Origin: Acidobacteriota bacterium
GTDB taxonomy: Bacteria > Acidobacteriota > Thermoanaerobaculia > Thermoanaerobaculales > Thermoanaerobaculaceae
Direction of reading: 5' to 3'
NCBI GenBank assembly: GCA_003133645.1
Contig: PKYI01000104.1
Location: 1 to 64,000 of the forward strand
Length of the DNA: 64,000 nt
A program made the translations under genes and the position numbers. Under the pieces are notes generated by a model. The model made no database searches, had not been told where the DNA came from, and saw only the letters and a list, made by a program, of their open reading frames with translations. The stretch's first letter is position 1. The number at the start of each line of letters is the position of its first letter. Shown here in pieces: positions 35,741 through 63,644 of this stretch.

Positions 35741-35958
35741 ATTTCAGTATACACCCCTGGCCTTGGTCCTAAGCCACTGAGACAGCACGTTGTGGGATGG
35801 ATAGGGGGCCTCTTCTCACCTTGATCGAGGATCACGTCGGTACCTGGTCTCAGCATCTCACCATTCTGAAGACAACGAGGATCAAAGGCGCACATGCGAT
35901 CCTTCAATCGGCGTCGGTGGGCAAAAGGTGAGAAGGTGATCCCTCGTACCGCACCCCG

Positions 35959-50304: not shown

Positions 50305-50662
50305 GATAGGTACCAGGTATCCCATTCAATCTATTTTGTGGTGGCCTTCCTTTCAACTTCGGATCAGAGGGAGGAACGGCGTGCCGCGAAAGCCGAGGAT
50401 CTTCGTCGCCGGCGGGACATATCACGTGTGCTGCCGAGTCGTGCGTGGTGAGCGGCCGTTCGTCGATGAGGCCGTTGCCGGGGGATAGGTACCAGGTATC
50501 CCATTCAATCTATTTTCTGGTAGCCTTCCTTTCAACTTCGGATCAGAGGGAGGAACGGCGTGCCACGAAAGCCGAGGATCTTCGTCGCCGGCGGGACGTA
50601 TCACGTGTGCTGCCGAGTCGTGCGTGGTGAGCGGCCGTTCGTCGATGAGGCCGTTGCCGGGG
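50305..50662 (+). repeat. 179-bp tandem duplication covering the RAYT upstream region and first codons
   Basis: Two copies, 50305-50483 and 50484-50662, differ by only a few bases (for example GTGGTGG/CTGGTAG, CATATC/CGTATC). Each has the GATAGGTACCAGGTATCCCA motif, GGGAGGA ribosome site, GTG start and about 34 codons of the transposase. The first copy's frame ends at once in the second copy, so it yields only a short peptide; the second copy runs on into the full gene. Confidence 0.92.
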
Positions 50663-51575
50663 CCTTCGTGTCCATGCTTACCGCCGTCAAGGGTGAGCAC
50701 GGCCTGACGATCCTCGCGTGGTGTCTGATGCCGAACCACTACCATCTCGTCCTTCGCGCGGGGGAACTGCCGTTGTGGCGCAGCATGCGGCTGGTACAGG
50801 GGCGGTTTGCCAAAGCTTTCAACCACACCAGGCGAGTCTTTGGCCCGGTGTGGCAGGGACGGTACAAGGCACGCCTAGTCGGCGATCCGGCCTACGTCAT
50901 GCAGGCCATCGCCTACGTGCACCTCAACCCGGTGGCGAGCGGGTTGGTCAAGGATCCGGGCTCGTATCGCTGGAGCGGGCATCGGCAGATCCTCGGCCGG
51001 GTGCGGTCCGGCTTGGTGGACGTGGATGAGGCGCTGGTGGCGTTCGGCTCCTCACGGCGAGAGGCTCTTCTCACCTACCGGAGCGTGCTCCGACGCGGCA
51101 AGGACGAGGGGTGGATGCAGGAGGGGCCGGGCCGACTGCCGTGGTGGCGGCCTGCAAGCGGTGAGGACGACGAGCTGCACCTGGATTCTGACCGGCCGCG
51201 CCTCGACTGGCAGGGTGGCCTCCACCGTCCGGACCCACCGAGCGCGGATGCCACCGATGTGGCGCGGGCAGTGGCGACGGTGCTCGACATCCCGGTCGAT
51301 GCCCTTGGTGGGCGAAGTCGAGGGGAAGAATTGCAGCGTGCTCGGGAGCTGGTGATGCTGGTCGGAGTTGAACAGTGCGGGCTGAAGGTGAAGGATCTTG
51401 CTCTCGTCATTGGCCGGGGCGCGGGTTCGGCGAGTCGCCTGTACACACAGGTGTCTGACGTGCAGCGTGCCGACCCGGGGTTTGCAGCGATTGCGGAGCA
51501 GCTGACGCAGACGCTGCGGGAGAACCAGACGAATTCATCCAAACGATAATAAATGAAATGGGATACCTGGTACCT
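50309..51575 (+). mobile_element. RAYT-bearing mobile unit with inverted flanks
   Basis: The transposase gene is flanked by near-inverted sequences: GGTACCAGGTATCCCATT on the left (starting 50309, repeated at 50488) and AATGGGATACCTGGTACC on the right (about 51556-51574). Directly beyond the right flank lies a half copy of the REP-like element found further along the window. This is the layout expected for a REP-associated tyrosine transposase locus. Confidence 0.75.
50560..51549 (+). CDS. REP-associated tyrosine transposase (Y1/HUH family, TnpA-REP)
   Basis: 329 residues from a GTG start with GGGAGGA six bases upstream. Y1_Tnp domain (about 1-160): GGTYHVCCRVV, HUH metal motif LMPNHYHLVLR, FGPVWQGRYKARLV, and AIAYVHLNPVASGLV, the helix that carries the catalytic Tyr in this family. 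Residues about 230-310 (RARELVMLVGVEQCGLKVKD, GRGAGSASRLYTQV) resemble the DNA-binding C-terminal domain of DnaA, an addition seen in longer RAYTs. These single-strand transposases act on REP palindromes. The related elements at 51.58-61.54 kb are the probable targets. Intact, so possibly active. Confidence 0.92.
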   Translation: MPRKPRIFVAGGTYHVCCRVVRGERPFVDEAVAGAFVSMLTAVKGEHGLTILAWCLMPNHYHLVLRAGELPLWRSMRLVQGRFAKAFNHTRRVFGPVWQGRYKARLVGDPAYVMQAIAYVHLNPVASGLVKDPGSYRWSGHRQILGRVRSGLVDVDEALVAFGSSRREALLTYRSVLRRGKDEGWMQEGPGRLPWWRPASGEDDELHLDSDRPRLDWQGGLHRPDPPSADATDVARAVATVLDIPVDALGGRSRGEELQRARELVMLVGVEQCGLKVKDLALVIGRGAGSASRLYTQVSDVQRADPGFAAIAEQLTQTLRENQTNSSKR

Positions 51576-51580
51576 TTATA

Positions 51581-51620
51581 CGCGCGAGACTCGACTCATG
51601 AACTGTTCCGAACCTGGGGC
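51581..51620 (+). repeat. REP-like element, half copy next to the RAYT
   Basis: CGCGCGAGACTCGACTCATG, then AACTGTTCCGAACCTGG, matches the right half of the full elements (compare 61498-61531). It directly follows the right flank of the RAYT unit, which ties the element family to this transposase. Confidence 0.7.
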
Positions 51621-51717
51621 TTATTGCCGTTCGCCCTTTGACACGAAGCTGGCCGTGCCGGATACTGCGGCTCGTTCCGCTGTACCGTGTCGTGCGAACG
51701 CGGTGGAAGGAGTTCCG

Positions 51718-53295
51718 GTGTCCGCCCCGACCCCCCAGGATGCCCGCCACGAGCTACTCGAACCGTACTTGCAACGGTTGCGGGCGTTTCTCCGGGCGCG
51801 CGGCGACGAGAACCGACCGCTCACGATCCCGTCCGAACCGATCCCGCTCGCGCTCTCCGCGGAGGAGCGTAAGGCGGCATGGTCGGTGCTTTGCGATGAG
51901 ACCGTCGCCTGGTCCGACGCCGGAGCCTGGATCCCGCTGGGCACCGGGCTGCACCTGGCCGTCGCCGCGGCGCTCGAGAGCGCGGCCCGTGCCGATCCCC
52001 GCGCTGCGTCGGGGCAGCTGGCCGCAGTGCGCGCCGTCGTCGCTGGCTATACCGAGGCGCTGCGGGAGGCCATTGCCGCCATGGTCACCGGCGGCCAGAC
52101 CGACGAGGCGAGGCGGCTCTCGACCTTCCGCAACAAGCTCGTCGAGATCCTCACATCGCTGCGCGCGGCCGGAGCGGGTGGTGCTCCGCCCGTGACGGAG
52201 GCCGAACTCAACGGTCCGTCCCCCGACCCGTCGCCGGGCGGAAGCCGCAATGCCACCGCGAGCATCGACACAGCGACAGCGCCCGACCCGGCGCTGAACC
52301 CATACCTCCAGCGCGCGGCCGCGTTCTTTCGTGCCCGGGGATACGAGGAACGTCCGCTCACGATTTCGTTCGGCCGAAGAACGTTGTCGTTGAGCGCCTG
52401 GGAGCACGGGGTGTTGTGGCAGTCATTGTGCGAAGGTAGGGAGCCTGCCAGCGAGTGGCACCGCCTGATCCCGGAGTGTGTCGCGGTGCAGCTCGCCTTG
52501 TTCCTGTCGCTGGACGAACTGGAGCGAGCGGGTCGAAACCCGGGCGCCCAGGGCGCGGCCCGATCGACCTTGCACGCAGTCGTGAAGCTCGCAGCCGGCG
52601 TCGTAGATGGGTTCCGCGCCCAGGTCGAACGGGCGATTGGCGCCGGCGCCCTGGAAGATGCAAAGCACCTCTCGACGCTCAGCAATGCGTTCGCGACGAC
52701 GCTGATCGAGGCGAGGCGGGCTCTGGCGCAGGAGCCGGCAGGCGCCGCAATTGCGGACGGCGGTTCCGGTCGAGGCGCCACCACGGCCTCGTCGGCCCTG
52801 CCTCCTGCTGTTGCAGGCACGGTACCCGTCGGGCCGCCCGACAAGCTCAAGCCGTTCCTCGACCGCGCGGCGCATCTGCTCGAGCTCCGGGGACACGAGG
52901 ACCTTCCCCTCTCGACGCCGGTCGGCGGCAAGTCGTGGAACCTGGACAAATGGGAGCGGCAGGTGCTGTGGAAGGTTTGGTGCGAGGAGGGCCCGCTGCC
53001 TCCCGAGTGGTCCATCCTGCTCGGATACGGCGCGGCAGCCCAGCTTGCGGCGCTTCTCGCGCTCGAACGGCTCAAGAGGGCGGACGGCGCACCCGAGTCG
53101 CGCACCGCTGCCGAGGCGGACAGAGACACCGCCATCGAGCTTGGTTCCGAGGTTGTCGAGCGACTGCGCGCGACCGCCGAGGCCCTCGCAGCTGACGGCC
53201 AGGTGAAGCTGGCGGAGCGGCTCACACGGTTCCGAGCCAAACTGACCGAGCCGATCCAGCTCCTGAAACAAACCCGCTCACAGCCGCCGGCCTGA
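51718..53295 (+). CDS. Protein of three ~145-residue repeats, unknown function
   Basis: 525 residues from GTG 51718, chosen for the GGAAGGAG site six bases upstream. Three diverged copies of one domain lie at about 12-150, 191-336 and 374-517, joined by Ala/Pro/Gly-rich linkers. Each has a 'PYLQR...F.RARG.E..PLT' start, a Trp/Cys core (WSVLCD, LWQSLCEG, LWKVWCEEG), a hydrophobic helix (AVQLALFLSLDEL, AAQLAALLALERL) and a helical end ('A..LST..N.....L.EARR'). No signal peptide or membrane span, so cytosolic. I recognise no family. It sits between the RAYT and a DUF1003 fragment. Confidence 0.8.
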   Translation: MSAPTPQDARHELLEPYLQRLRAFLRARGDENRPLTIPSEPIPLALSAEERKAAWSVLCDETVAWSDAGAWIPLGTGLHLAVAAALESAARADPRAASGQLAAVRAVVAGYTEALREAIAAMVTGGQTDEARRLSTFRNKLVEILTSLRAAGAGGAPPVTEAELNGPSPDPSPGGSRNATASIDTATAPDPALNPYLQRAAAFFRARGYEERPLTISFGRRTLSLSAWEHGVLWQSLCEGREPASEWHRLIPECVAVQLALFLSLDELERAGRNPGAQGAARSTLHAVVKLAAGVVDGFRAQVERAIGAGALEDAKHLSTLSNAFATTLIEARRALAQEPAGAAIADGGSGRGATTASSALPPAVAGTVPVGPPDKLKPFLDRAAHLLELRGHEDLPLSTPVGGKSWNLDKWERQVLWKVWCEEGPLPPEWSILLGYGAAAQLAALLALERLKRADGAPESRTAAEADRDTAIELGSEVVERLRATAEALAADGQVKLAERLTRFRAKLTEPIQLLKQTRSQPPA

Positions 53296-53390
53296 GAGCG
53301 GGATGAGGCGGCTGACGGTGAGCAGCAAGAGCGCTCGCCAGCCCATGCGTTGCCCCCGGAGCGGGTACCTATTCCACCCGTCTCGGCACC

Positions 53391-53582
53391 TTAGCTTGGT
53401 TTGGCTCGACCTGCGTCCACCTTCTCGATCAGCAGCAGCAGAAGGCTGTTCTGGTACTCCAGGTGTTCCAGGATGACCTCGATCTCCTGCTCGGCCTTGA
53501 TGTTGGTCTCGTATTCGCTCTGGGCGCGCAACTCGGCATGGCGGCCCTGGATGTTCTGCCCGATCATGATGAGCGGCGGAAC
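53391..53582 (-). pseudogene. DUF1003 protein, C-terminal fragment
   Basis: About 63 codons: PPLIMIGQNIQGRHAELRAQ, then YETNIKAEQEIEVILEHL, ending VDAGRAKPS and a TAA stop. The pattern 'LIxMSQNRQxxxDRxxAExDYExNxxAExEI' is the C-terminal signature of DUF1003 membrane proteins. The two membrane helices that should come before it are missing. The coding match stops where a REP-like element begins (53583), so the element, or a deletion beside it, removed the 5' part. Confidence 0.75.
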
Positions 53583-53640
53583 GGGTACCAGGTCCAGCTG
53601 AGTTGACAAGTGATGGAGAACGAACCGCGCGACACTCCGC
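53583..53640 (+). repeat. REP-like element, copy 2 (left part)
   Basis: GGGTACCAGGTCCAGCTGAG, then TTGACAAGTGATGGAGAACG and AACCGCGCGACACTC, aligns with the left and middle of the copies at 55680, 58376 and 61455. The right arm (ATCAACTG...GGACCTGGTACC) is missing or diverged. It lies at the break point of the DUF1003 fragment. Confidence 0.75.
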
Positions 53641-53781
53641 TCATCGAGCGCGCCCCAACCCGGGCCCGACAAAGCAACAACGCAAGCCTGACCCCCAAAT
53701 GACCCCCAAACCCCAAAATTGTGAGGCGGCATTTTCCAGCGGGCCGCCGCGTTGACATCTTCCGGTATGGAGAGGGGATCG

Positions 53782-54402
53782 ATGCCGGACCCGAGACAGC
53801 TCGATGGCGCCAGCCCGGAGCGGGGCATGGCGGCGGGACGGCCCGCACGGGGGGACGGCGCTCGCCGCCTCGCGGCGTGCCTGATCGTGCTCGCGGCGGG
53901 AGTATCCGGAGTCTCCTCCGCCGCGTCTCCAGCTGGCGCAAGGCCGGCCGCCGCGACGTCGCGCCGGCCCGTCGCCCAACCGGCCGTGGTGCGCGTCACC
54001 GCCCAGGACGTGCGCCACATGATCCGGGGGGCCGCCGGCCGGGTCGTCCTGGTCAACGTGTGGGCGACCTGGTGCGAGCCGTGCCGGCAGGAGTTCCCCG
54101 ACCTGCTCAGGTTGCGTCGCGCGCTCGCCGGCCGGGGGCTCGATCTCATCCTCGTCTCGGCGGACTTCGACAACCAGCTCCCGCAGGTGCGCTCGTTCCT
54201 CGCCCGGCAGGGTGTCGACTTCACGACGTACTTCAAGAGCGAGGGCGACATGTCGTTCATCAACGGGATGGACCCCACCTGGTCGGGCTCGCTCCCGGCG
54301 ACGTTCGTCTACGACCGGAGCGGAACGCTGCGCGACTTCTGGGAGGGGCCGGCGACCTACGACAAGCTCCTCGGCAAGGTGAACAAGCTGCTGGGGTCGT
54401 GA
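53782..54402 (+). CDS. TlpA-like thioredoxin-fold protein, exported
   Basis: 206 residues. The start is set at the ATG preceded by GGAGAGG; an earlier Met (53767) is possible. The signal/anchor segment is at about 33-50 (LAACLIVLAAGVSGVSSAAS) after a long polar N-terminus. The thioredoxin fold follows with the redox motif WCEPC in VNVWATWCEPCRQEFP and the cis-Pro region SLPATFVYDRSG. It probably reduces disulfides or cytochrome c apoprotein in the periplasm. A second thioredoxin-like gene starts 36 bases later, suggesting an operon. Confidence 0.88.
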   Translation: MPDPRQLDGASPERGMAAGRPARGDGARRLAACLIVLAAGVSGVSSAASPAGARPAAATSRRPVAQPAVVRVTAQDVRHMIRGAAGRVVLVNVWATWCEPCRQEFPDLLRLRRALAGRGLDLILVSADFDNQLPQVRSFLARQGVDFTTYFKSEGDMSFINGMDPTWSGSLPATFVYDRSGTLRDFWEGPATYDKLLGKVNKLLGS

Positions 54403-54437
54403 CCGATCGACTCCGGCATGGGAAAGGGTGATGTCCA

Positions 54438-55049
54438 ATGGCAAGCAGGTTCAACGCTGTCACGATGGCGGCTCTGGTGCTGGCGGCCACGGTCCAGGTC
54501 GCGGCTGCCCTCGAGCTCGGCGCCACGATGCCGATGACGACCGTCAAGATGAAGTCGGTCGATGGCAAGGAGATCGACTTGAGCGACGTGGCCGGGCCCA
54601 AGGGCACGCTCGTGATCTTCTCGTGCAACCACTGCCCCTGGGTCAAGGCCTGGGAGACCCGCATTGCCGCCCTCGGCAACGAGCTGCCTACGAAGGGCAT
54701 CGGCGTCGTCGCGATCAACTCCAACGACCCGGCGGCGTACCCCGGCGACGACTACGCGGACATGGTCGAGCGCGCCAAGGCGCGCGGCTTCACCTTCCCC
54801 TACGTCGTGGACTCGACCTCCGACGTGGCGCGGGCGTTCGGGGCCACCCACACGCCCGAGGCGTTCCTCTTCGACCGCGCCGGTAAGCTCGTCTACCACG
54901 GCACGATCGACGACAACGCCCAGGATGCGGCGAAGGTGGAGCACCACTACCTGCGCGATGCCGCGGACGCGCTGCTGGCCGGCAAGCCGATCCTAGCATC
55001 CGAGACCAAGTCGATCGGCTGCTCCCTGAAGCTCCGCCCCAGGGGCTGA
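54438..55049 (+). CDS. Exported thioredoxin-family (AhpC/TSA-like) protein
   Basis: 203 residues with a signal peptide (about 1-25, VTMAALVLAATVQVAAALEL). The domain starts LGATMPMTTVKMKSVDGKEI and the active site is FSCNHCPWVKAWE (CNHC). NSNDPAAYPGDDYADM and FGATHTPEAFLFDR follow the peroxiredoxin/thioredoxin-like family that has CxxC at the first cysteine. It is a probable periplasmic thiol oxidoreductase. It follows the TlpA-like gene closely, and the DUF3617 gene is 82 bases downstream. Confidence 0.9.
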   Translation: MASRFNAVTMAALVLAATVQVAAALELGATMPMTTVKMKSVDGKEIDLSDVAGPKGTLVIFSCNHCPWVKAWETRIAALGNELPTKGIGVVAINSNDPAAYPGDDYADMVERAKARGFTFPYVVDSTSDVARAFGATHTPEAFLFDRAGKLVYHGTIDDNAQDAAKVEHHYLRDAADALLAGKPILASETKSIGCSLKLRPRG

Positions 55050-55131
55050 GCGACTCGCGGGGGGGTGGGAAAAATCGGGTACCAGAATGGAATCGGTACC
55101 GATTACTCGGCACGAACAAACAGGAGGAATC

Positions 55132-55629
55132 ATGCGGTGGATCAGGGTTTGGATCGCGTTGGTCCCTTGCTTCTTCGTCGTGGCGGTCTCCGCCTCGGCG
55201 CTGGATAGGAAAGCCGGCCTCTGGGAGCTGACCACGACGATGACGTGGCAGAAGTCCCCCTACGGTGGTGGCGGCAACCCGGCCACGGCCGGCGGCCCAC
55301 ACATGACATCGGTCTGTTTCACTCAGGAGCAGATCGAAAAGTACGGTGCCATTCTTCCACCACTGCACCCCGGCTGCCAAATCGTCAACCTCGTCAAGAA
55401 GGCCGGCAGCATGACGGCCGACATGGTGTGCACTGGGAAGATGAGCGGCAAGGAAAGCGTGGCGTCCTCGTGGAGCGACGCCGAGCACGCGACGGGCCAC
55501 ATGCACTTCGTGGGGTCGATTCAGGCAGGACCGTACATGATGCCGATCGAGTGGACGACCGAGTCGAGCTCAGTCTTCAACGGTGCGGACTGCGGCGCCG
55601 TGAAGCCTTTCCAGATGCCGGACAAGTGA
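55132..55629 (+). CDS. Secreted DUF3617-family protein
   Basis: 165 residues with a signal peptide (about 1-24). AGGAGG five bases before this ATG decides the start. LDRKAGLWELTTTMTWQ is the 'GLWE.T' opening of DUF3617; later CFTQEQIEKYG and conserved Cys residues (SVCFT, GCQIV, MVCTG, ADCGAV) fit two disulfides. Function unknown; these are small periplasmic proteins common in Proteobacteria and Acidobacteria. The two thioredoxin-like genes just upstream may form its disulfides. A REP-like element begins 51 bases after the stop. Confidence 0.85.
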   Translation: MRWIRVWIALVPCFFVVAVSASALDRKAGLWELTTTMTWQKSPYGGGGNPATAGGPHMTSVCFTQEQIEKYGAILPPLHPGCQIVNLVKKAGSMTADMVCTGKMSGKESVASSWSDAEHATGHMHFVGSIQAGPYMMPIEWTTESSSVFNGADCGAVKPFQMPDK

Positions 55630-55679
55630 ACCCGCATCCAATCCCCGAATGTGCCGCTCGCTGCTTCTGCGTGGGAATG

Positions 55680-55767
55680 GGTACCGGGTCGGGTCCGGCT
55701 GAATCTCCAAGTGGTGGAGAATGCAACGCACCAGACTCGGTTTGTCAACTCTGCCGGACCTGGTACC
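55680..55767 (+). repeat. REP-like element, copy 3 (full)
   Basis: 88 bases from GGTACCGGGTCGGGTCCGGC to GGACCTGGTACC, with inverted ends (GGTACC..GGTCC / GGACC.GGTACC) and core ATGCAACGCACCAGACTCGG. It lies between the convergent DUF3617 and SoxB-like genes. After it, about 55785-55810 holds a piece of the GCGAGGAG-type repeat (inverted). Confidence 0.85.
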
Positions 55768-55913
55768 TATTTCGCTTCGTCGTCCCGCCGTTGGCAGGAC
55801 TCCTCGCAGTGACAAGTGAGGGGACGAGGCCGCGACTCGCCGCATCGACGACGAGCTTGCACGCCTCTGCCGTGATCGCCCATTGTCACCGTGACCACTT
55901 GGCTGTGGATCTT

Positions 55914-57362
55914 CTACACAACAACGAACGTACCTTTGAGTTCCGCACGTAGAGGATGATGCTTCGCGAGGTACGCCCGCATTGCGTCGATCGCTCGTTC
56001 AGGACGATTCTCACGATGCCGCCCATACTTGCGAGCCACGCCTTGCTCGGTCACAAAGGCCGTGGCGTACGAGCGCCCCGGTTGTACCTCTTCATTACCC
56101 ACCCGCACTTCCTGGATGCGATGGCCCGGCGGATTTTCGAGCTTGAAGTAAACATTGAGACCGAGCGCTCGCTTGACGTACCCGCCCATCTGGTCGTACG
56201 GATCGCGCGCGAACGTCCGCTCGAGGTTCTCCTCCAACATCGCGACGAGCTCCTCGCCCGTCAATTCGACCGTCGAGACCGGCGGGTTCATCGGGATTAT
56301 GTTGTAGCAATCGTTCAAAGTGACCTTCCCCGGCACGATCGGCGCGCCGAAGCGCCAACCGTTCGAGAAAGCCACTTGTGCGCCCGTGCTCTCTCGCACC
56401 GCCTGCAAGAGAAAATTGTCCATGGTCGCTTCCAGCATGGTGGCTCGGTTGAGCACGGTCGCCGTTTCACCGACAACCGTTGAGAGCTCATCTTGATACG
56501 GCGCGAGCGCCTGGCGGACGAGGTCATCGACTGCGGGATCGGGTTCTACGCTGGCCTCAACCTCGATCAGTTGATGCCGGTAGTCGACGACTTGTCCGCC
56601 CTTGATCTCCAAATCCAAGCGACCCAAGAAGGAACCGTGGCAGCCCGACTGGATCACCAGCGTCTTTCCCTGGAGAACCGGCACACGAAGACGGTTATGG
56701 GTGTGGCCGCTCAGGCAAATGTCGACACCCTGCACCTCCGACAAGAGTTTCATGTCTTGCGGAAACCCCAGGTGGGAGATGAGAACGATCAGGTCGACAT
56801 TCTCTTGGGTGCCCAGAACATCGATGATCGGAGGCAGTTCCTCTCGGCCCAGGGTGAAGTCCAGTCCTTCGCTGTAGGAGGGTGGCATGGTCTTGCCCAC
56901 AATATTGGAGGCGATGCCGACAAGACCGATCCGGAGCCCGCCGATCTCCGTGACGGTGTAGGGCGGAAAGAGCCGCCCTCTGGTCGCTTGATCATAGACG
57001 TTGATCGCGAGCATCGGATAGCGGAGCTCGGCTGCGCGCTGTTTGAAGGTCGCGGCACCGTACGCGAACTCCCAATGGGCCGTCATCGCGTCCAGACCCA
57101 ACGAATTCAAGATGGGGATCAACGCCTGTCCCCGCGTCTTCAAGGCGGGATGGGTGCCGTGGAGAGTATCGCCGCAATCGCAAAACAGAACCTGCCCCTG
57201 GCGTTCAGCCCGAATCTGCTTGACGAGCGCGGCAATGCGGGCATACCCTCCCGCAGGACGATAGACGACCTGACCACCCTGCCAGAACATCTCCTGGTGT
57301 AGGTCACAATAGGCATGGCTATCGTTGAGTTGAACGACGGTCAGCGACGTTCCATGTGCCAT
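55914..57362 (-). CDS. SoxB-like / 5'-nucleotidase-family metallohydrolase
   Basis: 482 residues; ATG at 57362 with GAGGAG eight bases upstream (GTG 57371 is an alternative). Metallophosphoesterase core: VVQLNDSHAYCDL, FCDCGDTLHG, ISHLGFPQD, SGHTHNRL; 5'-nucleotidase C-terminal domain from about 300 (NGWRFGAPIVPGKV, NDCYNIIP). DAMTAHWEFAYG replaces the usual GNHEFD and is the form found in thiosulfohydrolase SoxB. No signal peptide is evident. The neighbours are a TauE/SafE fragment and DsrE, which supports a sulfur role, but a nucleotidase cannot be excluded. Base composition is visibly less GC-rich than in the neighbouring genes. Confidence 0.82.
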   Translation of the reverse strand: MAHGTSLTVVQLNDSHAYCDLHQEMFWQGGQVVYRPAGGYARIAALVKQIRAERQGQVLFCDCGDTLHGTHPALKTRGQALIPILNSLGLDAMTAHWEFAYGAATFKQRAAELRYPMLAINVYDQATRGRLFPPYTVTEIGGLRIGLVGIASNIVGKTMPPSYSEGLDFTLGREELPPIIDVLGTQENVDLIVLISHLGFPQDMKLLSEVQGVDICLSGHTHNRLRVPVLQGKTLVIQSGCHGSFLGRLDLEIKGGQVVDYRHQLIEVEASVEPDPAVDDLVRQALAPYQDELSTVVGETATVLNRATMLEATMDNFLLQAVRESTGAQVAFSNGWRFGAPIVPGKVTLNDCYNIIPMNPPVSTVELTGEELVAMLEENLERTFARDPYDQMGGYVKRALGLNVYFKLENPPGHRIQEVRVGNEEVQPGRSYATAFVTEQGVARKYGRHRENRPERAIDAMRAYLAKHHPLRAELKGTFVVV

Positions 57363-57374
57363 GATCTGCACTCC

Positions 57375-57552
57375 TCATCCCACGTTCTCGTAGAGCAAGT
57401 ACAAGGCGACGATGATGGTGAACCAACCGAACGCGTTGGAGAGCTTCTGTGCCGGTATTCGACCAGCCAGTGCCGTGCCGGCCAACACACCGGCTAGACC
57501 ACCGAGAACAAACAGTCCCACGATCCTGAGGTCAACGGTCCGAGGATCAACG
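57375..57552 (-). pseudogene. TauE/SafE sulfite exporter-family permease, C-terminal fragment
   Basis: About 58 codons with no start, ending at TGA 57375: VDLRIVGLFVLGGLAGVLAG, TALAGRIPAQKLSNAFGWF and TIIVALYLLYENVG. This is the last helix pair of TauE/SafE anion permeases ('AG...G..LA...P...L...F......ALYLL'). The first six or so helices are missing. The fragment lies between dsrE and the SoxB-like gene, so an original dsrE-safE-soxB-like operon lost most of its permease. Confidence 0.75.
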
Positions 57553-57572
57553 AGAGAATGACATGGCTCATG

Positions 57573-57923
57573 TTAAGGCCGAATATACGCCCATCCCTCG
57601 GCCTGTTTCTTGACCAGTTCCGCTACGCCGGCTGAAACGACATCCACCGATTCGAGAAGTGACTCCTTGGCGATTCCCAGGATGCTCAACGAATGGGCGC
57701 AGGCCGCAAAGCGAACTCCCTTAGCGGCAAGTTGTTCGACTTGCTCTGCGTGCGAGTCAGGGCCTTTGACGAGCGCATTGACGCCGCCACCATTGGCGAC
57801 TAACTCGACTTCTACACTGTTCTCACCCAGGTCGTCCAGCAGGTTTTCAATGTTCTTGAACACTTGGTCGGCACGGCCCTTACTGGGTTCATCAAGATGA
57901 AAAACGACACGGTACGTCTTCAT
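57573..57923 (-). CDS. DsrE-family small sulfur-relay-type protein
   Basis: 116 residues: YRVVFHLDEPSKGRADQVFK, VEVELVANGGGVNALVKG and GVRFAACAHSLSILGI. This is the DsrE/DsrF/YchN fold; the Cys in AACAHS is at the position of the active cysteine in many members. The family binds or relays sulfur as persulfide, or is uncharacterised. Its base composition matches the SoxB-like gene rather than the chromosome, so the two likely arrived together. No good ribosome site was seen. Confidence 0.87.
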   Translation of the reverse strand: MKTYRVVFHLDEPSKGRADQVFKNIENLLDDLGENSVEVELVANGGGVNALVKGPDSHAEQVEQLAAKGVRFAACAHSLSILGIAKESLLESVDVVSAGVAELVKKQAEGWAYIRP

Positions 57924-58531
57924 GGCTACGCCCCTTCGTTCGATTCCCCAAGGCCACTAGCCGAGCTTGGAGCTTGGGCAATGCCTTCGCGTGCCTTCGC
58001 TTCGTTCAAGAATGATGGAAGAGTCGTGTTTCACTGGGTTCGAGGATGCACTTACTCAACGAGGGCGTCAAGGCGAACGTGGCAGTCTCAGGGTACACGT
58101 GGGCGAGGGGACGACGGCGAAGCGTGGTTGAGGCAGCCCGGAACAATGGGTAGGTTCGGCGCACACCACTTTGTGTTCAAACCTAATGTCTTGGCAGTCG
58201 CGAACCACCCGAACTCAAGGGGCTCGTGGAGAACCACTGTCATCGCGAGGAGTCCTGCCGCAGACAGGACGACGCGGCGATCTCGCCGAAATCCACGATA
58301 CTGCTTCGCCCCGTCACCAGTCCCATCTGCGGCGGGGCTCGCAGTGACGGTGGTTCCTCTATGACGGACGGCAAATCGGTATCAGTTGACGGAAGGATGG
58401 AGGATGAACCGCGCGACACCCGGTTGATCAACTGTGCCGGACCTGGAGGCACCGATTCCCTCTCGTGGGCGGGCGCCCACGCCCGCCCATGCATCGCTGT
58501 TGGGGGCGGCCGCGCTCCAAGGCTCCGGCAG
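57924..58531. other. Gene-free stretch with two repeat types
   Basis: No gene recognised in 608 bases. Up to about 58230 the sequence is AT-richer and featureless, like the islet beside it. Bases about 58238-58352 form an inverted pair of the dispersed repeat (CATCGCGAGGAGTCCTGCCG, GACGCGGCGATCTCGCC, ending GGCTCGCAGTGACGG). Bases 58376-58455 are REP-like copy 4. A GGCGGGCGCCCACGCCCGCC hairpin lies at about 58468-58487. Confidence 0.65.
58376..58455 (+). repeat. REP-like element, copy 4
   Basis: From ATCGGTATCAGTTGACGGAA through GGATGGAGGATGAACCGCGC and ACACCCGGTTGATCAACTGT to CCGGACCTGGAGGCACCGAT. The internal AGTTGA/TCAACT arms and the ATCGGT/ACCGAT ends are inverted. It lies 76 bases after the stop of the anti-sigma-like gene. 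Confidence 0.85.
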
Positions 58532-59722
58532 CTAATGCCTTGGCAACGCGCGGACGTGCAGGTCGGCGCGCGTGGGCGCCCGCTCGGAGGCCACGGTGAC
58601 GATGACCTGCGCCGGCGTGATCGCTGGCGCCGTGGCCAGCGCGCGGTAGCTCGCCGGCGGCACGTCCCGGAACGTCGCCGTCCCGCCGGAATCGGTCCTC
58701 GCCGTCCGCGTCTCGAACGCGCCCTGGCCGAGGCGCTCCAGCGTCACCGTGACGCCCTCGCACGGCCGCTCGGCCTCGTCGAGGATCACCACCGTCACCG
58801 CGTTCTCCTCCTTCCCGATGCCGCCCCGTGCCTGGACACGACGGGGGCGGTTCATCGCTGCGGCGGCCTGCGCCGAGGTGGAGGCGACCGGCGCGGCACC
58901 CCTCACGGTGACCTCCTCGCCCATCTTGGCCTGGGGCATTGTGATGCCGACCTCGGAGGTGGCGCCGGCGGCGACCTTGACCCTTTTCTCGGCCGGTTCG
59001 AACCCTTGCGCCTCCGACCGGACGCGGTACTCGCCGGCGGGAAGACCTCGCAGCGACGCACGGCCTGCGGCGTCCGAGACGGCGGCGCGTGCGCCTTGCT
59101 CCGGGACGCCGGCGCGGGTCGCGGTGATCGTCGTGCCGGGAAGCGGTTCCATCCCGTCGCTCACTCGCAGATCCAGCGCTCCGGTCGGCGGGGTCGCTAC
59201 CATCGCGACGGCTTTGGGCTCTGCCGCGGCGGGGGCCTTCTCGGCGTCCTTGGCCACGAGACCCAGCTCGTCCGCGCTCTCGGCGTTGCGGGAAGCGGAG
59301 GCGATCCTCTGGCGCGCAGGGACGGGTATCCGGAACCCCTTGGACGCGCGCGGCAGCGCCATCGCGACCGCGATCCCCTGGGGCTCCGCCGGGGCCGGGG
59401 CCGTGACCACGATCTCGTCGATGTGCACCACGCCGGAGAGCGCCATCCACTTCCACACGTCGTCGGGCGGCGACGGGATGCGGGCCGCCACCATCCCCAC
59501 CCCGGCCACCAGCAACACGGACATCGCGGCGAGCCAGCTCGGGTGCAGTCCCTCGACCAGCGGAGGCATCAGCCACCGGCGTCCCGGCTGGTACGTCTGC
59601 CGGTCGAGCCGGATCGAGCCCGGGATCTCGGCCTTGATACGATCGGCAAGGCCGGCCGGTGGCTCCGGTGTCGCGCGGGTGGCAAGCAACCGCGCGATCT
59701 CCCTTTGCGTGAGCTTCGTCAT
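58532..59722 (-). CDS. Membrane anti-sigma-like protein with carboxypeptidase-regulatory-like domains
   Basis: 396 residues. A short cytosolic N-terminus (LTQREIARLLATRATPEPPA) leads to one membrane helix at about 62-83 (WLAAMSVLLVAGVGMVAARI). Outside there is an Ala-rich linker and two beta domains of the carboxypeptidase D regulatory type at about 195-265 and 310-390 (LPGTTITATRAGVPEQG, AAGRASLRGLPAGEYRV; PCEGVTVTLERLGQ, SGGTATFRDVPPASYRA). EEVTVRGAAPVA resembles a TonB-receptor plug start. The ATG overlaps the sigma-factor stop (ATGA), so it is probably the regulator of that sigma factor, sensing outside the inner membrane. Confidence 0.75.
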   Translation of the reverse strand: MTKLTQREIARLLATRATPEPPAGLADRIKAEIPGSIRLDRQTYQPGRRWLMPPLVEGLHPSWLAAMSVLLVAGVGMVAARIPSPPDDVWKWMALSGVVHIDEIVVTAPAPAEPQGIAVAMALPRASKGFRIPVPARQRIASASRNAESADELGLVAKDAEKAPAAAEPKAVAMVATPPTGALDLRVSDGMEPLPGTTITATRAGVPEQGARAAVSDAAGRASLRGLPAGEYRVRSEAQGFEPAEKRVKVAAGATSEVGITMPQAKMGEEVTVRGAAPVASTSAQAAAAMNRPRRVQARGGIGKEENAVTVVILDEAERPCEGVTVTLERLGQGAFETRTARTDSGGTATFRDVPPASYRALATAPAITPAQVIVTVASERAPTRADLHVRALPRH

Positions 59723-60324
59723 GACGCAACCTCCTGGAGCTTAGCGGCGAGCAGCCGGAACGCGTGCTTGAGCCGCTTTCGAACGGCCACCTCGGTGATC
59801 CCGTCCGCCTTCGCGATCTCGGCGACCGGCGCGTCGGCCCAATACCTCGCGGCCACCGTAAAGCGGAGATCCTCCGGCAGCGAGAGCACCGCCTTGCGCA
59901 GTCGCTGCTGCGTCTGGGCCTCGATCACCTCGTCGTCCTGGCGCTGGGCGCCGTCGGGTAGCGTCGCGCCCAGCTCCTCGTCGAGCGGCACTACCGCGTG
60001 CGGGCGGCGGACGTGGTTCAGGAACGTGTTGGTGGCGATGCGGTACAGCCACGTGGCGAACCGCGACCGCCCGTCGAACGACCCGATCGCCGCCCACGCC
60101 CGGCGGTACGTCTCCTGCGTGAGGTCGGCGGCGAGGTCGGGGTCATGGGCCAGCCGGCACAGCAGGGCGTAGACGCTCCGGTAGGTGCGGTCGACCAGCG
60201 CTTCGGCCGCCGCCCGGTCGCCCTCGGCAAGGGCCGCGAGCAGCGCTGGTTCGTCCGCCGGCTCCACCTTTCGCGCCTCCGGCCCGCCCGTCCGTACCGA
60301 TGGCAGTGCCTGCACGGTACCCAT
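59719..60324 (-). CDS. ECF-type RNA polymerase sigma factor
   Basis: 201 residues. Region 2 at about 25-100: LVDRTYRSVYALLCRLAHDP, ADLTQETYRRAWAAIGSFDG and FATWLYRIATNTFLNHVRR. Region 4 at about 130-195: LPEDLRFTVAARYWADAPVA, EIAKADGITEVAVRKRLKHA. This is a normal ECF architecture without extra C-terminal domains. It directs RNA polymerase to target genes once released by its partner, probably the overlapping membrane gene. Start uncertain; no clear ribosome site before this ATG. The TonB gene diverges from it and could be a target. Confidence 0.93.
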   Translation of the reverse strand: MGTVQALPSVRTGGPEARKVEPADEPALLAALAEGDRAAAEALVDRTYRSVYALLCRLAHDPDLAADLTQETYRRAWAAIGSFDGRSRFATWLYRIATNTFLNHVRRPHAVVPLDEELGATLPDGAQRQDDEVIEAQTQQRLRKAVLSLPEDLRFTVAARYWADAPVAEIAKADGITEVAVRKRLKHAFRLLAAKLQEVAS

Positions 60325-60548
60325 GCCATTTAGACACAGAACGGCGGGAAAAGAAAACCAGAAGGCGGGAAAGGGAAAAGGTCAAACGGGAAGATGGAAC
60401 TCGGCCTCGGAGGCGACCCTCACGAGTCTGCCGCGGAAGGCCGGCAAGGAACGCCGTTCCTCATCGCCGCCGTCGTACCCGGTTTCGGTTTCGCTCCCGC
60501 GCGTGTCCAAAGACCAGGAGCAGGGAACGGGAACGAAGGGAGGGCGCC

Positions 60549-61292
60549 ATGTTCGACACCACGCTGATCGCATCGAACCCGGGACGGGAGGTGAGACGGA
60601 AGCTCGCGACGCTCCCGGTGGCCCTGGCCGTCCACGCCATGGCGCTCGGCTCCGTCATGGTCGGCCAGCTCTGGGCCGTGCAGCCGGTGGAGCAGCCCGA
60701 CGTCGTGGTGGCGTTCGTGGACTTCATCCCGCCATCGCCGCCACCCCCTCCGCCAAAACCTCCGGAAGGCAACGGTGCAACCGCTGCCACGAAACCAACC
60801 GACCCAACGCCTCCAACCGAGCCGGTTCAACCGCAGGTGGTCCCCGCGCAGGTGCCAAAAGCAGGAGCGCCCGAACCGACTGGCCAGCCAGGCGGCGTCG
60901 CTGGGGGCGTGGATCGTGGAACAAAGGGCGGCATCGTCGGCGGCGTCAAACCCGACCCAGAGCAAGAGCCACCGGTGGTCATCGCCGACGACAAGCCAGT
61001 CCGTCCGGGCGACGGCGTCGTACTTCCCGTGAACATCTACCGGCCCGATCCCGTCTATCCCGAACTGGCAAGGAGAGCTCGCCTCCAAGGTGTAGTCATT
61101 GTCGAGGCGACCATCGATCGTCAAGGCAACGTTGTTGACACCAAGCTGCTCAAAGACCCCGGCCTGGGGTGCGGCGCCGCGGTCGTCGAAGCGTTCCGGA
61201 GTTGGAAGTACCGGCCGGCGACATTCAACGACAGGCCCGTCAGCATCATCATGACCGTGACCGTGACCTTTCGACTCGCAGGAACCGAGTAG
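60549..61292 (+). CDS. tonB: Energy transducer TonB
   Basis: 247 residues; GGGAGGG four bases before the ATG. One membrane helix at about 24-44 (LPVALAVHAMALGSVMVGQL). A Pro-rich periplasm-spanning stretch at about 60-120 (PPSPPPPPPKPPEG, DPTPPTEPVQPQVV). The C-terminal TonB domain is at about 165-247 (YRPDPVYPELARRARLQGVV, IVEATIDRQGNVVDTKLL, FRSWKYRPATFNDRPVSIIM). It passes proton-motive energy to outer-membrane receptors, confirming a two-membrane cell. No exbB/exbD nearby. A terminator hairpin follows. Confidence 0.93.
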   Translation: MFDTTLIASNPGREVRRKLATLPVALAVHAMALGSVMVGQLWAVQPVEQPDVVVAFVDFIPPSPPPPPPKPPEGNGATAATKPTDPTPPTEPVQPQVVPAQVPKAGAPEPTGQPGGVAGGVDRGTKGGIVGGVKPDPEQEPPVVIADDKPVRPGDGVVLPVNIYRPDPVYPELARRARLQGVVIVEATIDRQGNVVDTKLLKDPGLGCGAAVVEAFRSWKYRPATFNDRPVSIIMTVTVTFRLAGTE

Positions 61293-61411
61293 CGTGCCGC
61301 CCTTTCCGTCCCCCTTGCACCTGCGGACGGCGGCCGGCAGCGCCCGGCCGCCGCCTCAGGGTCCTCTGAGGGCCCTCAACAACACACCAAGCAGAATGAC
61401 AACTCTCGCGC

Positions 61412-61438
61412 AGGCCGTGCCGATTTCCGGCACGGCCT
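61412..61438 (+). terminator. Intrinsic terminator of tonB
   Basis: AGGCCGTGCC, loop GATTTCC without its last pairing bases, GGCACGGCCT: a ten-pair hairpin followed by CTTTCTT, 119 bases after the tonB stop. Confidence 0.75.
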
Positions 61439-61454
61439 CTTTCTTCGGCTAATG

Positions 61455-61537
61455 GGTACCTGCCCGGCTCAGTTGACAGAAAGATGGAGGATGCGCCGCG
61501 CGAGACTCGGTTTATCAACTGTGCGGGACCTAGTACC
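61455..61537 (+). repeat. REP-like element, copy 5 (full)
   Basis: From GGTACCTGCCCGGCTCAGTT through GACAGAAAGATGGAGGATGC and GCGAGACTCGGTTTATCAAC to GTGCGGGACCTAGTACC. Internal arms AGTTGA/TCAACT and outer arms GGTACC/AGTACC are inverted. It separates the convergent tonB and amidohydrolase genes and overlaps the 3' end of the latter. Confidence 0.87.
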
Positions 61538-63644
61538 TAACCGGACCGTCGCTCAGCGAGGGAGCACGGGCGGCCTCCGGCTGGACGCCGATCGCGCGGT
61601 CGAGCGCGGGGACGCTGTAGACGACGCCCCCCTTGACGACGGTCTCGACCCGGCGCAGGGCGTGGATGTCCGCGACCGGGTCGCCGTCGACGACGATCAG
61701 GTCGGCGAGCTTCCCCGGCGCCACGGAGCCGAGCTCGCGGCCGCGTCCCATCACCCGTGCGCCGCCGAGCGTCGCGATCTGGAGCACCCTCGCGCTGGGA
61801 ATGCCGGCCTCGACCCAGAGCTCGAGCTCGCGGGCAAGGGTGAAGCCCGCCATCGAGTCGGTGCCGGCGACCATCGGGATGCCCGCGTCGTACTGCGCCT
61901 TGAGCATGACGAGCATGGCGCGGAATGCGTCGCGGTAGAGTGCGTCCTTCCCTTCCGGGACCGGCAGCCCGCCGGTCGAGAGGCCGCGCCGGACCTGCAC
62001 CGGCAGGCGCCCGGCGAGCCCGGCCCAGCCGGGCAGCACGCCGCCGTGGCGGGGCACGAAGAGCGTCTCGAAGACGTTGATCGTGGGGTCGAGGACCGTA
62101 TGATGCGCGAGGAACAGCTTGAACAACGCCTGCACACGCGGCTGCGAGGGGTCGATCTCGGCGCCGTGCTCGGCCACGGCGGTGAACCGTGCCGGCGTGC
62201 GCGTGTCCTTCACCGTGTCGAACAGGAAGTTCAAGAAGACGAAGTTCTCGTGCTGGATCTCGTCCGCGCCGTCGCGGACGAACTGCTCGGCGGTCATGAA
62301 CGCCGGGACATGGCCCGAGACGCGCATGCCGTGCTCGTGGGCGAGGCGGGCGAGCAGCGGCACCAGCTCCGGCTTGATCGAGCTGTAGATCTTGAGCTGG
62401 ACGTACCCGTGCCGGGCGTAGTTCTCCACCGCGGCCTGCGCCTGCGCCGGGGTGTCCACCTTGTCTTTGATCGGCGCGCTGTACGGTCCGCTGCCGTCGA
62501 CGACACCGGCCAGGACTACCCGCGGCCCGATCGCGGTGCCGTCGTCGAAGCTCTTTTTCATGGCGAGAAGCGTGTCCATGTCGTTGGCCATGTCGCGCAC
62601 GGTGGTGACGCCGTTGGCGATGTCGAGGAGGCCGTCGACGCCCCCGAGGTGCACGTGCATGTCCCACAGGCCGGGCAGCAGCGTCTTGCCGTTCAGTTTG
62701 ACGACCTCGGCGCCGTCCGGCACACTGACCTTGCCGTCGGGACCCACCGCGGCGATGCGCTCGCCCTCGATCACGACGGTCTGGCCGGGCCGCAGGACCG
62801 CCCTGTCGGCGTCGAAGAGCGCCGCTCCGGTGAACGCGAGCGCCCTCTCGGGCTTGTGACCGAGGCTCTTGGCCAGGGCCGCGGAGCGGGCGACCTCGGC
62901 CGCGTCCTGGGCCGCGAGCAGCCTGGGGAGCGCGCCCTCCCATCCCTTCGGCACCACCGTCAACCAGTGGCTGGCCGAGGCGAAGAAACCCCCGTCGGCG
63001 TCGAGCCACACCCGCACCGGGGTGAAGTCGAGGCCGGCGACCGCGACCTGCACGACCCTGCGGCGCGTGTTGCCGGCCGTAAGCTCGAGCTCGCCGACCT
63101 TCTCGAGCGTCGCCTCACCCTCGGGCAGCAGGGCGATCGTCCCGCCCGGCGCGCGCAGGAGCGCGCGGGCGAGCAGGCCCGTGTCGAACGGTGTGTCATT
63201 GAACGGGAGGTAGAAGGCATGGCCCGAAACGGCGCGGCTGCCCGGTCCGCCGCCGCCGGACCACGTGGCGCGCGTCTCCGTGCGCTCGAACCGCTCGGCG
63301 ACCGGGCCCTTCATGTAGTCGTTGCCGTCCGTCTCGATGCGAACAGGGGTCGAATCCGGGCCGAGCCGGATCGTCGAGTCGAGCCGCGGTCCGCGCCCGC
63401 GGTCGTTGTACTCGAAGTGGACCCGGTATGCGGAGGCCCCCGTCGCCCGCACCGTCATCGTGCCGGCCTGTGCGCCGCCGAGAATGACCGCGAAGGCCGC
63501 GGGAGGCGGCGGCGCGGGCGGCTCGGGTGCTGCGGCGACGGGCACCGCCAGCAGGGCGAGCGCGGTCGCGGCGATCGCCAGCGTCCGCCGGCCAGCCCCG
63601 TCCCATGGCGTCGTGCGGTGGACGGCCCGCGCCGCGGGGCTCAC
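61530..63644 (-). CDS. Secreted amidohydrolase-family protein
   Basis: 704 residues from a GTG start that overlaps the dipeptidase stop (GTGA). Signal segment about 20-40 (LAIAATALALLAVPVAAAPE). The first ~270 residues are a beta-rich domain, also seen in other Acidobacteria-style amidohydrolases. The metal-dependent TIM barrel follows: LPGLWDMHVHLGGV (HxH), Lys in VQLKIYSS, His in RVSGHVPA, IQHENFVF (His), MVAGTDSMAG (Asp), and GKLADLIVVDGDP at the end. It probably acts on imides, dipeptides or lactam-like amides. The last codons and TAG stop lie inside a REP-like element, so the original C-terminus may have been replaced. Confidence 0.9.
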   Translation of the reverse strand: MSPAARAVHRTTPWDGAGRRTLAIAATALALLAVPVAAAPEPPAPPPPAAFAVILGGAQAGTMTVRATGASAYRVHFEYNDRGRGPRLDSTIRLGPDSTPVRIETDGNDYMKGPVAERFERTETRATWSGGGGPGSRAVSGHAFYLPFNDTPFDTGLLARALLRAPGGTIALLPEGEATLEKVGELELTAGNTRRRVVQVAVAGLDFTPVRVWLDADGGFFASASHWLTVVPKGWEGALPRLLAAQDAAEVARSAALAKSLGHKPERALAFTGAALFDADRAVLRPGQTVVIEGERIAAVGPDGKVSVPDGAEVVKLNGKTLLPGLWDMHVHLGGVDGLLDIANGVTTVRDMANDMDTLLAMKKSFDDGTAIGPRVVLAGVVDGSGPYSAPIKDKVDTPAQAQAAVENYARHGYVQLKIYSSIKPELVPLLARLAHEHGMRVSGHVPAFMTAEQFVRDGADEIQHENFVFLNFLFDTVKDTRTPARFTAVAEHGAEIDPSQPRVQALFKLFLAHHTVLDPTINVFETLFVPRHGGVLPGWAGLAGRLPVQVRRGLSTGGLPVPEGKDALYRDAFRAMLVMLKAQYDAGIPMVAGTDSMAGFTLARELELWVEAGIPSARVLQIATLGGARVMGRGRELGSVAPGKLADLIVVDGDPVADIHALRRVETVVKGGVVYSVPALDRAIGVQPEAARAPSLSDGPVRY

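Follow-up and report, generated by a model that had tools for sequence, protein, structure and literature searches.

The closest described relatives of the locus reported here are the TIRYTs, RAYT-like Y1 transposases that have terminal inverted repeats (TIRs) in place of REPs (Di Nocera, De Gregorio and Rocco 2013, PMC3733652). TIRYTs are known in the Acidobacteria K. versatilis, T. saanensis, A. capsulatum and G. mallensis, their TIRs can build repeat families as singles, dimers and groups, and the motif GGGGWSAS, not required of all, occurs in the TIRs of many (PMC3733652). For the genes of TnpA-Y1 subclass 2.1 one study found no REP-like repeats nearby and left open what the DnaA domain IV-like tail does in TIRYTs (PMC6006769).

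The window, by which we mean the whole 64,000-nt stretch of DNA that was analysed (contig PKYI01000104.1, positions 1 to 64,000, here C5), comes from an Acidobacteriota MAG of the family Thermoanaerobaculaceae, probably of soil or fen origin. The system that it holds is ordinary in kind and well defined in detail, namely a TIRYT transposon beside the MITE-like derivatives of another TIRYT. We regard it as very probable that these are two related but separate families, a clade-A TIRYT transposon and a set of gene-deleted type-E TIRYT miniatures presumably moved in trans. The clade-A transposon and the MITE-like deletion derivatives belong to the TIRYT/TIRtron kind (Di Nocera 2013), which they resemble in the Y1 transposase flanked by TIRs, the acidobacterial host and the presence of TIR repeat families. 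They differ from it in that the TIRs begin with GGTACC and, clade D apart, do not carry GGGGWSAS, in that a single genome has TIRs of several types, and in having 85-bp gene-deleted derivatives and nested composites. This corrects the pairing of enzyme and repeat to which proximity alone would point. The sequence-only reading had inferred an enzyme next to its own REP substrates, of which the RAYT homologue and the mobile-element-like palindromes stand and the pairing is not supported.

The intact transposase ORF (50560-51549, plus strand) starts with GTG and encodes 329 aa that include the PNHYHL and YVHLNP motifs. The protein passes the curated cut-off of NCBIfam NF047646 (84.5 bits versus 80), which places it in the RAYT/TnpA-REP family, and it also matches Pfam Y1_Tnp; its earlier description as an intact HUH transposase and RAYT homologue is thereby borne out. 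H60, H62 and Y119 are invariant in 15 homologues and supply the HUH pair and the catalytic tyrosine, and the top structure match is 4er8, TnpArep (3.8e-05). The C terminus (about residues 227-323) is a helix-turn-helix like that of DnaA domain IV. Profile matches show the same resemblance in the C-terminal third of the family proteins, with the family profile matching DnaA domain IV (3pvp) at 4.1e-07; Bac_DnaA_C is found in 8 of 15 homologues at E up to 1, the window protein itself (0.012) lying below the cut-off. The enzyme has the motifs NH[YF]H (here NHYH), W[EQ] (here WQ) and Y[IV]HLNP and the C-terminal HTH or DnaA_C-like domain of TnpA-Y1 subclass 2.1 (2.1.2, PMC6006769), which it also resembles in its length and in the absence of GTAG REPs; the difference from that subclass is that TIR-derived repeats are present here.

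The gene lies between the inverted ends AGGTACCAGGTATCCC, which agrees with the inverted flanks noticed earlier. The left TIR (50487..50517, plus strand, AGGTACCAGGTATCCCATTCAATC...) and the right TIR (51545..51575, plus strand, ...AAATGGGATACCTGGTACCT) form inverted repeat I3, which is 87% complementary over 31 nt; the flank AGGTACCAGGTATCCCATT occurs at 50487 and again at 50308, and its complement ends at 51575. By eye, neither the transposase flanks nor the consensus of the small elements described below carries a GTAG foot, and the flanks are 19-31-bp TIRs starting AGGTACC. The GT[AG]G-tagged, genome-repeated palindromes of 20-40 bp that flank the gene in a canonical RAYT-REP system (REPtron) are thus not what surrounds this gene, which instead sits between TIRs as in a TIRYT or TIRtron. 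We would accordingly describe clade A as a unit in which its own TIRs enclose a Y1/HUH transposase whose DNA-binding tail resembles DnaA domain IV, probably a TIRtron and not a REP-bound RAYT.

A second full copy (C174, L002) encodes a protein 86% identical to the window enzyme, and its homology to the window copy begins exactly at the left TIR and stops at the right one. Between the outer edges of the TIRs (AGGTACC to GGTACCT) the two copies share 87% identity, their flanks are unrelated, and the clade-A copies of G006, G007 and G008 have these ends too, which suggests that the unit is a transposon of about 1.09 kb moving on its own. In this class of Y1/HUH element a target-site duplication is not expected. 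The window copy groups with that of G008 in the tree and the C174 copy with that of G007; divergence within the genome is therefore as large as between species, as for old lineages and not a recent burst. The youngest event seen at the transposon, absent from the earlier note, is a 179-bp tandem duplication of its left end. Its first copy (50305..50483, plus strand) holds the clade-A left end, with the TIR from 50308, and a disrupted beginning of the transposase gene; it forms with 50484-50662 a direct repeat of spacing 179 that is 98% identical, and the duplicated 35 codons are 97% identical. The comparison for an empty site covers the right side only, where G002 lacks the transposon and the adjoining half element and its homology begins at 51632, a break in synteny at the half-element site; the left side is not syntenic. 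The clade-A transposon of G006 (L065, G006:C66:354-1441) is apparently centred in a palindrome (CGTCCACGCAA / TTGCGGTGGACG), as though its target had been a hairpin.

We surveyed TIRs around 28 RAYT homologues from the genus and family, and almost every full-length one bears TIRs of its own, 20-31 bp long, with the left TIR typically 49-77 bp upstream of the start codon; in L003, L074 and L111 automatic search gave no convincing TIR pair, and a GGTACC-type sequence is visible upstream. The TIR is GGTACCAGGTATCCCATT in clade A, GGTACCAGGTACCxCATT in clade B, GGTACCAGGTATCACCATCTCAC in clade C, GGGGTCAGGCTTGCGTTGTTGCG in clade D and GGTACCAGGTCCGGCnnAGTTGACA in type E, of which sister types are also seen. 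TIR type follows transposase clade, since mapping it on the tree takes 9 changes versus 18.8 after shuffling, and 0 of 200 shuffles gave as low a number. The GGGGWSAS motif is absent from the clade-A and E TIRs and present only in clade D (GGGGTCAG). The outcome is a natural collection, from a single bacterial family, of about 25 related Y1 transposases, almost all of them paired with TIRs of which the outer GGTACC is mostly constant and the inner part varies by enzyme clade. This makes testable the question of whether the tail reads the inner TIR, and we propose that the DnaA-like tail may recognise this clade-specific part. A DnaA box in the inner TIR was considered and rejected, as TTWTNCACA shows no enrichment among 14 TIRs (1 of 14 at p 0.04). 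At 35839..35950 the window also contains an inverted pair of clade-C TIRs on opposite strands (3 mismatches each of 23), which is probably a clade-C miniature element.

The small E-type elements are palindromes of about 85 bp that form a strong hairpin and have the consensus GGTACCAGGTCCGGC-TG-AGTTGACA...TCAACT-GT-GCCGGACCTGGTACC. The right half of one (51581..51620, plus strand) directly follows the transposon, with a right-arm score of 40.7 against a shuffled maximum of -4.8, so that the half element reported earlier is real; the matching left half did not turn up beyond the opposite end of the clade-A transposon. The four further copies that had been pointed out in the window are recovered by a covariance model, all on the plus strand: 53584..53666 (degenerate right arm; E 8e-13, this copy being in the model), 55680..55767 (outer arms complete; E 9e-15), 58378..58453 (left outer arm lost; E 5e-09) and 61455..61537 (complete; E 6e-18), the last with a 3' flank common to G001:C37:2036. 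The model was trained on seven of the copies, whose E-values are consequently not independent; independent evidence comes from hits in relatives and from the reversed-pattern control. That control gave zero matches in 17 genomes, and the best scores in a shuffled 98-kb sequence were about 7 for the left arm and -5 for the right, whereas most real copies score 25-70. Scanning the MAG (3.69 Mb, 216 contigs, 89% complete) yielded, half element included, 11 copies on the window contig at 51.5-73.3 kb, two on C180, one on C117 and one on C198, with solo E arms elsewhere. The copies on C5 beyond the window lie at 64899, 67647, 68280, 71509, 72862 and 73144 (minus strand); this concentration in one 22-kb stretch, in which 10 of 11 copies are co-oriented (p 0.012), had escaped the earlier note. 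Solo clade-D TIRs, at 53673..53695 (minus strand, 1 mismatch of 23 to the clade-D TIR) and L021:987-1009, sit 6 bp to the right of the elements at 53584 and 64899, and the one by the 64899 element also adjoins the orthologous element in G007.

The origin of these elements is indicated by their ends. The arms (GGTACCAGGTCCGGC-nn-AGTTGACA) match the clade-A TIR at only 12-13 of 25 positions but match the ends of an intact transposase of the sister genus, L109 of G009 (left GGTACCAGGTCCGGCGTAGTTGACAAG, right TTGTCAACTTCGCCGGACCTGGTACC; 44% identical to the window enzyme), at 21-23 of 25. At G002:C179:9577-9930, element-type ends flank a transposase start of about 70 aa whose best match among the 28 homologues is L109 (45%, 2.9e-12); an L109-type transposon with an internal deletion best explains this relic. 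In the G008 elements L096 and L098, extra sequence before the right arm resembles, by eye, the final codons of a gene of this sort. On this comparison of sequences, the simplest account would be that the gene was deleted from a type-E transposon and that the short product then spread. The elements thus have the make-up of MITEs of a TIRYT, with both ends of the autonomous element and the gene deleted, and they lack the clade-A ends that MITEs of the neighbouring transposon would carry. In the 9 incomplete MAGs of the window's own genus no intact type-E transposase was found, the match coming from the sister genus; because the tree gives L109 no close sister, what ties it to the lost progenitor is its TIR similarity and the one relic.

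We thus picture type E as old, mostly decayed miniatures of about 85 bp that would consist of the left and right ends of a TIRYT transposon different from clade A, with the gene removed. The type-E transposase preserved intact in G009 presumably mobilised them in trans, and they may have moved as single-stranded hairpins. They are like other MITEs in being gene-deleted elements with both ends of an autonomous transposon, here a Y1/HUH element with long TIRs. With REPs and REPINs and their RAYTs (PMC3116915, PMC2817692) they share the inverted arrangement of two arms in a short palindrome whose mobility is attributed to a Y1 enzyme acting in trans. However, they are not REPs in the GTAG-tagged sense, as had been supposed: the GTAG foot is missing, the arms are longer, about 20 copies stand against more than a hundred, and the neighbouring gene does not encode the partner enzyme.

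That the clade-A transposase and the small elements form a cognate pair of enzyme and substrate, as first proposed, is unlikely. The half element does abut the transposon and some elements lie inside A-type deletion derivatives, but the outer GGTACCAGGT, the sole part common to the element arms and the clade-A TIRs, occurs as such or in close variants at the ends of several clades, and the inner arm differs from that of clade A and matches that of another clade. Nor do the two track each other across the genus. The elements, present in five related MAGs as well, occur in G001, G002 and G005, in which no clade-A homologue was found, and are missing from the clade-A genomes G004 and G006, which is the kind of distribution that the sequence-only reading had itself named as evidence against the pairing. 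Such elements are nevertheless mobile-element-like palindromes of a kind that does pair with enzymes of this sort.

The clustering of co-oriented copies within 22 kb would also suit borders of integron attC-like cassettes, at which a TIRYT enzyme, or recombination from one copy to another, exchanges blocks. Blocks between elements do vary in order or presence between species: in G005:C238 the order is 52830-53292, 58522-61442, 53725-55063, G007 lacks 58012-61554, and in G007 and G008 the block at 70153 begins about 3 bp past an element. The blocks are, however, often multi-gene with mixed strands, and the ends of the elements are by eye transposase TIRs (GGTACC) and not attC core sites. In a synteny control with a 20-kb query, half of it element-free, synteny in G001 and G008 was also broken at the element-free gaps 41223/41336, 43663/43779 and 46217/46345, and since breakpoints are common there too, the cassette reading is not supported. 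We consider cassette borders very unlikely, and the related idea, that the elements serve as integron-like, single-stranded hairpin borders for Y1/HUH mobilisation or exchange of whole gene blocks, seems highly improbable. The strong hairpin, the positions common to several species and an open frame (MEDxPRETRFINCAGP) in several copies could alternatively speak for conserved functional RNA or DNA hairpins, such as terminators or attenuators, or for short peptide genes. Yet near-identical copies have different flanks, Rfam gives no match at E up to 1, compensatory changes in the palindrome are none, the measured values equalling the shuffled mean, and the frame is stopped in C117 and its substitutions are by eye not codon-like; a function of this kind is extremely improbable. 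Uncompensated pairing changes are what is expected of copies decaying from a palindrome.

Most E copies are old. C5:64899 and G007:C392:7095 have both flanks in common, and a left flank is common to C5:68280, G007:C202:205 and G002:C191:7872; such flanks, shared between species, mean that those insertions predate the species. C117:9685 and C180:399, which show 97% identity across 96 bp and have different flanks, are the only sign of recent copying, and this one pair is thin support for the earlier suggestion that the elements are possibly still moving. Clade-A deletion derivatives also exist, and some carry a small E-type element: one lies within the derivative at C5:72816-73087 (element 72862) and another (71509) within a similar A-type relic at about 71445-71760, the C198 element adjoins an A right end, and G007 has two places where an E element follows an A left end. 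Given these positions within or beside A-type derivatives, clade A may have moved part of the E elements as passengers. In G009 we counted 23 arm copies, mostly (C23:28-410, C67, C80, C17) in direct tandem groups of short spacing, whereas in the window's genus they form inverted 85-bp pairs. Two co-oriented E arms were also seen on a low-coverage contig filed as an actinomycete MAG (L103, JAKAEN010000145.1), which is possibly misbinned acidobacterial DNA.

Other features lie close to the elements. A second palindromic repeat pair (TGTCATCGCGAGGAGTCCTGCC...) at 58238-58280 and 55772-55814 is mutually inverted and 79% complementary, and resembles the widespread GTCATTGCGAG-type repeats. L021:4603-5730 (contig 68603-69730) contains internal tandem repeats of about 165 bp, which are also present in G002, G007 and G008. 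The ORF at 51553-53295 encodes 580 aa with no Pfam or NCBIfam match, apparently made of several repeats of about 150 aa, and is conserved in G001, G002 and G008 and partly in G005.
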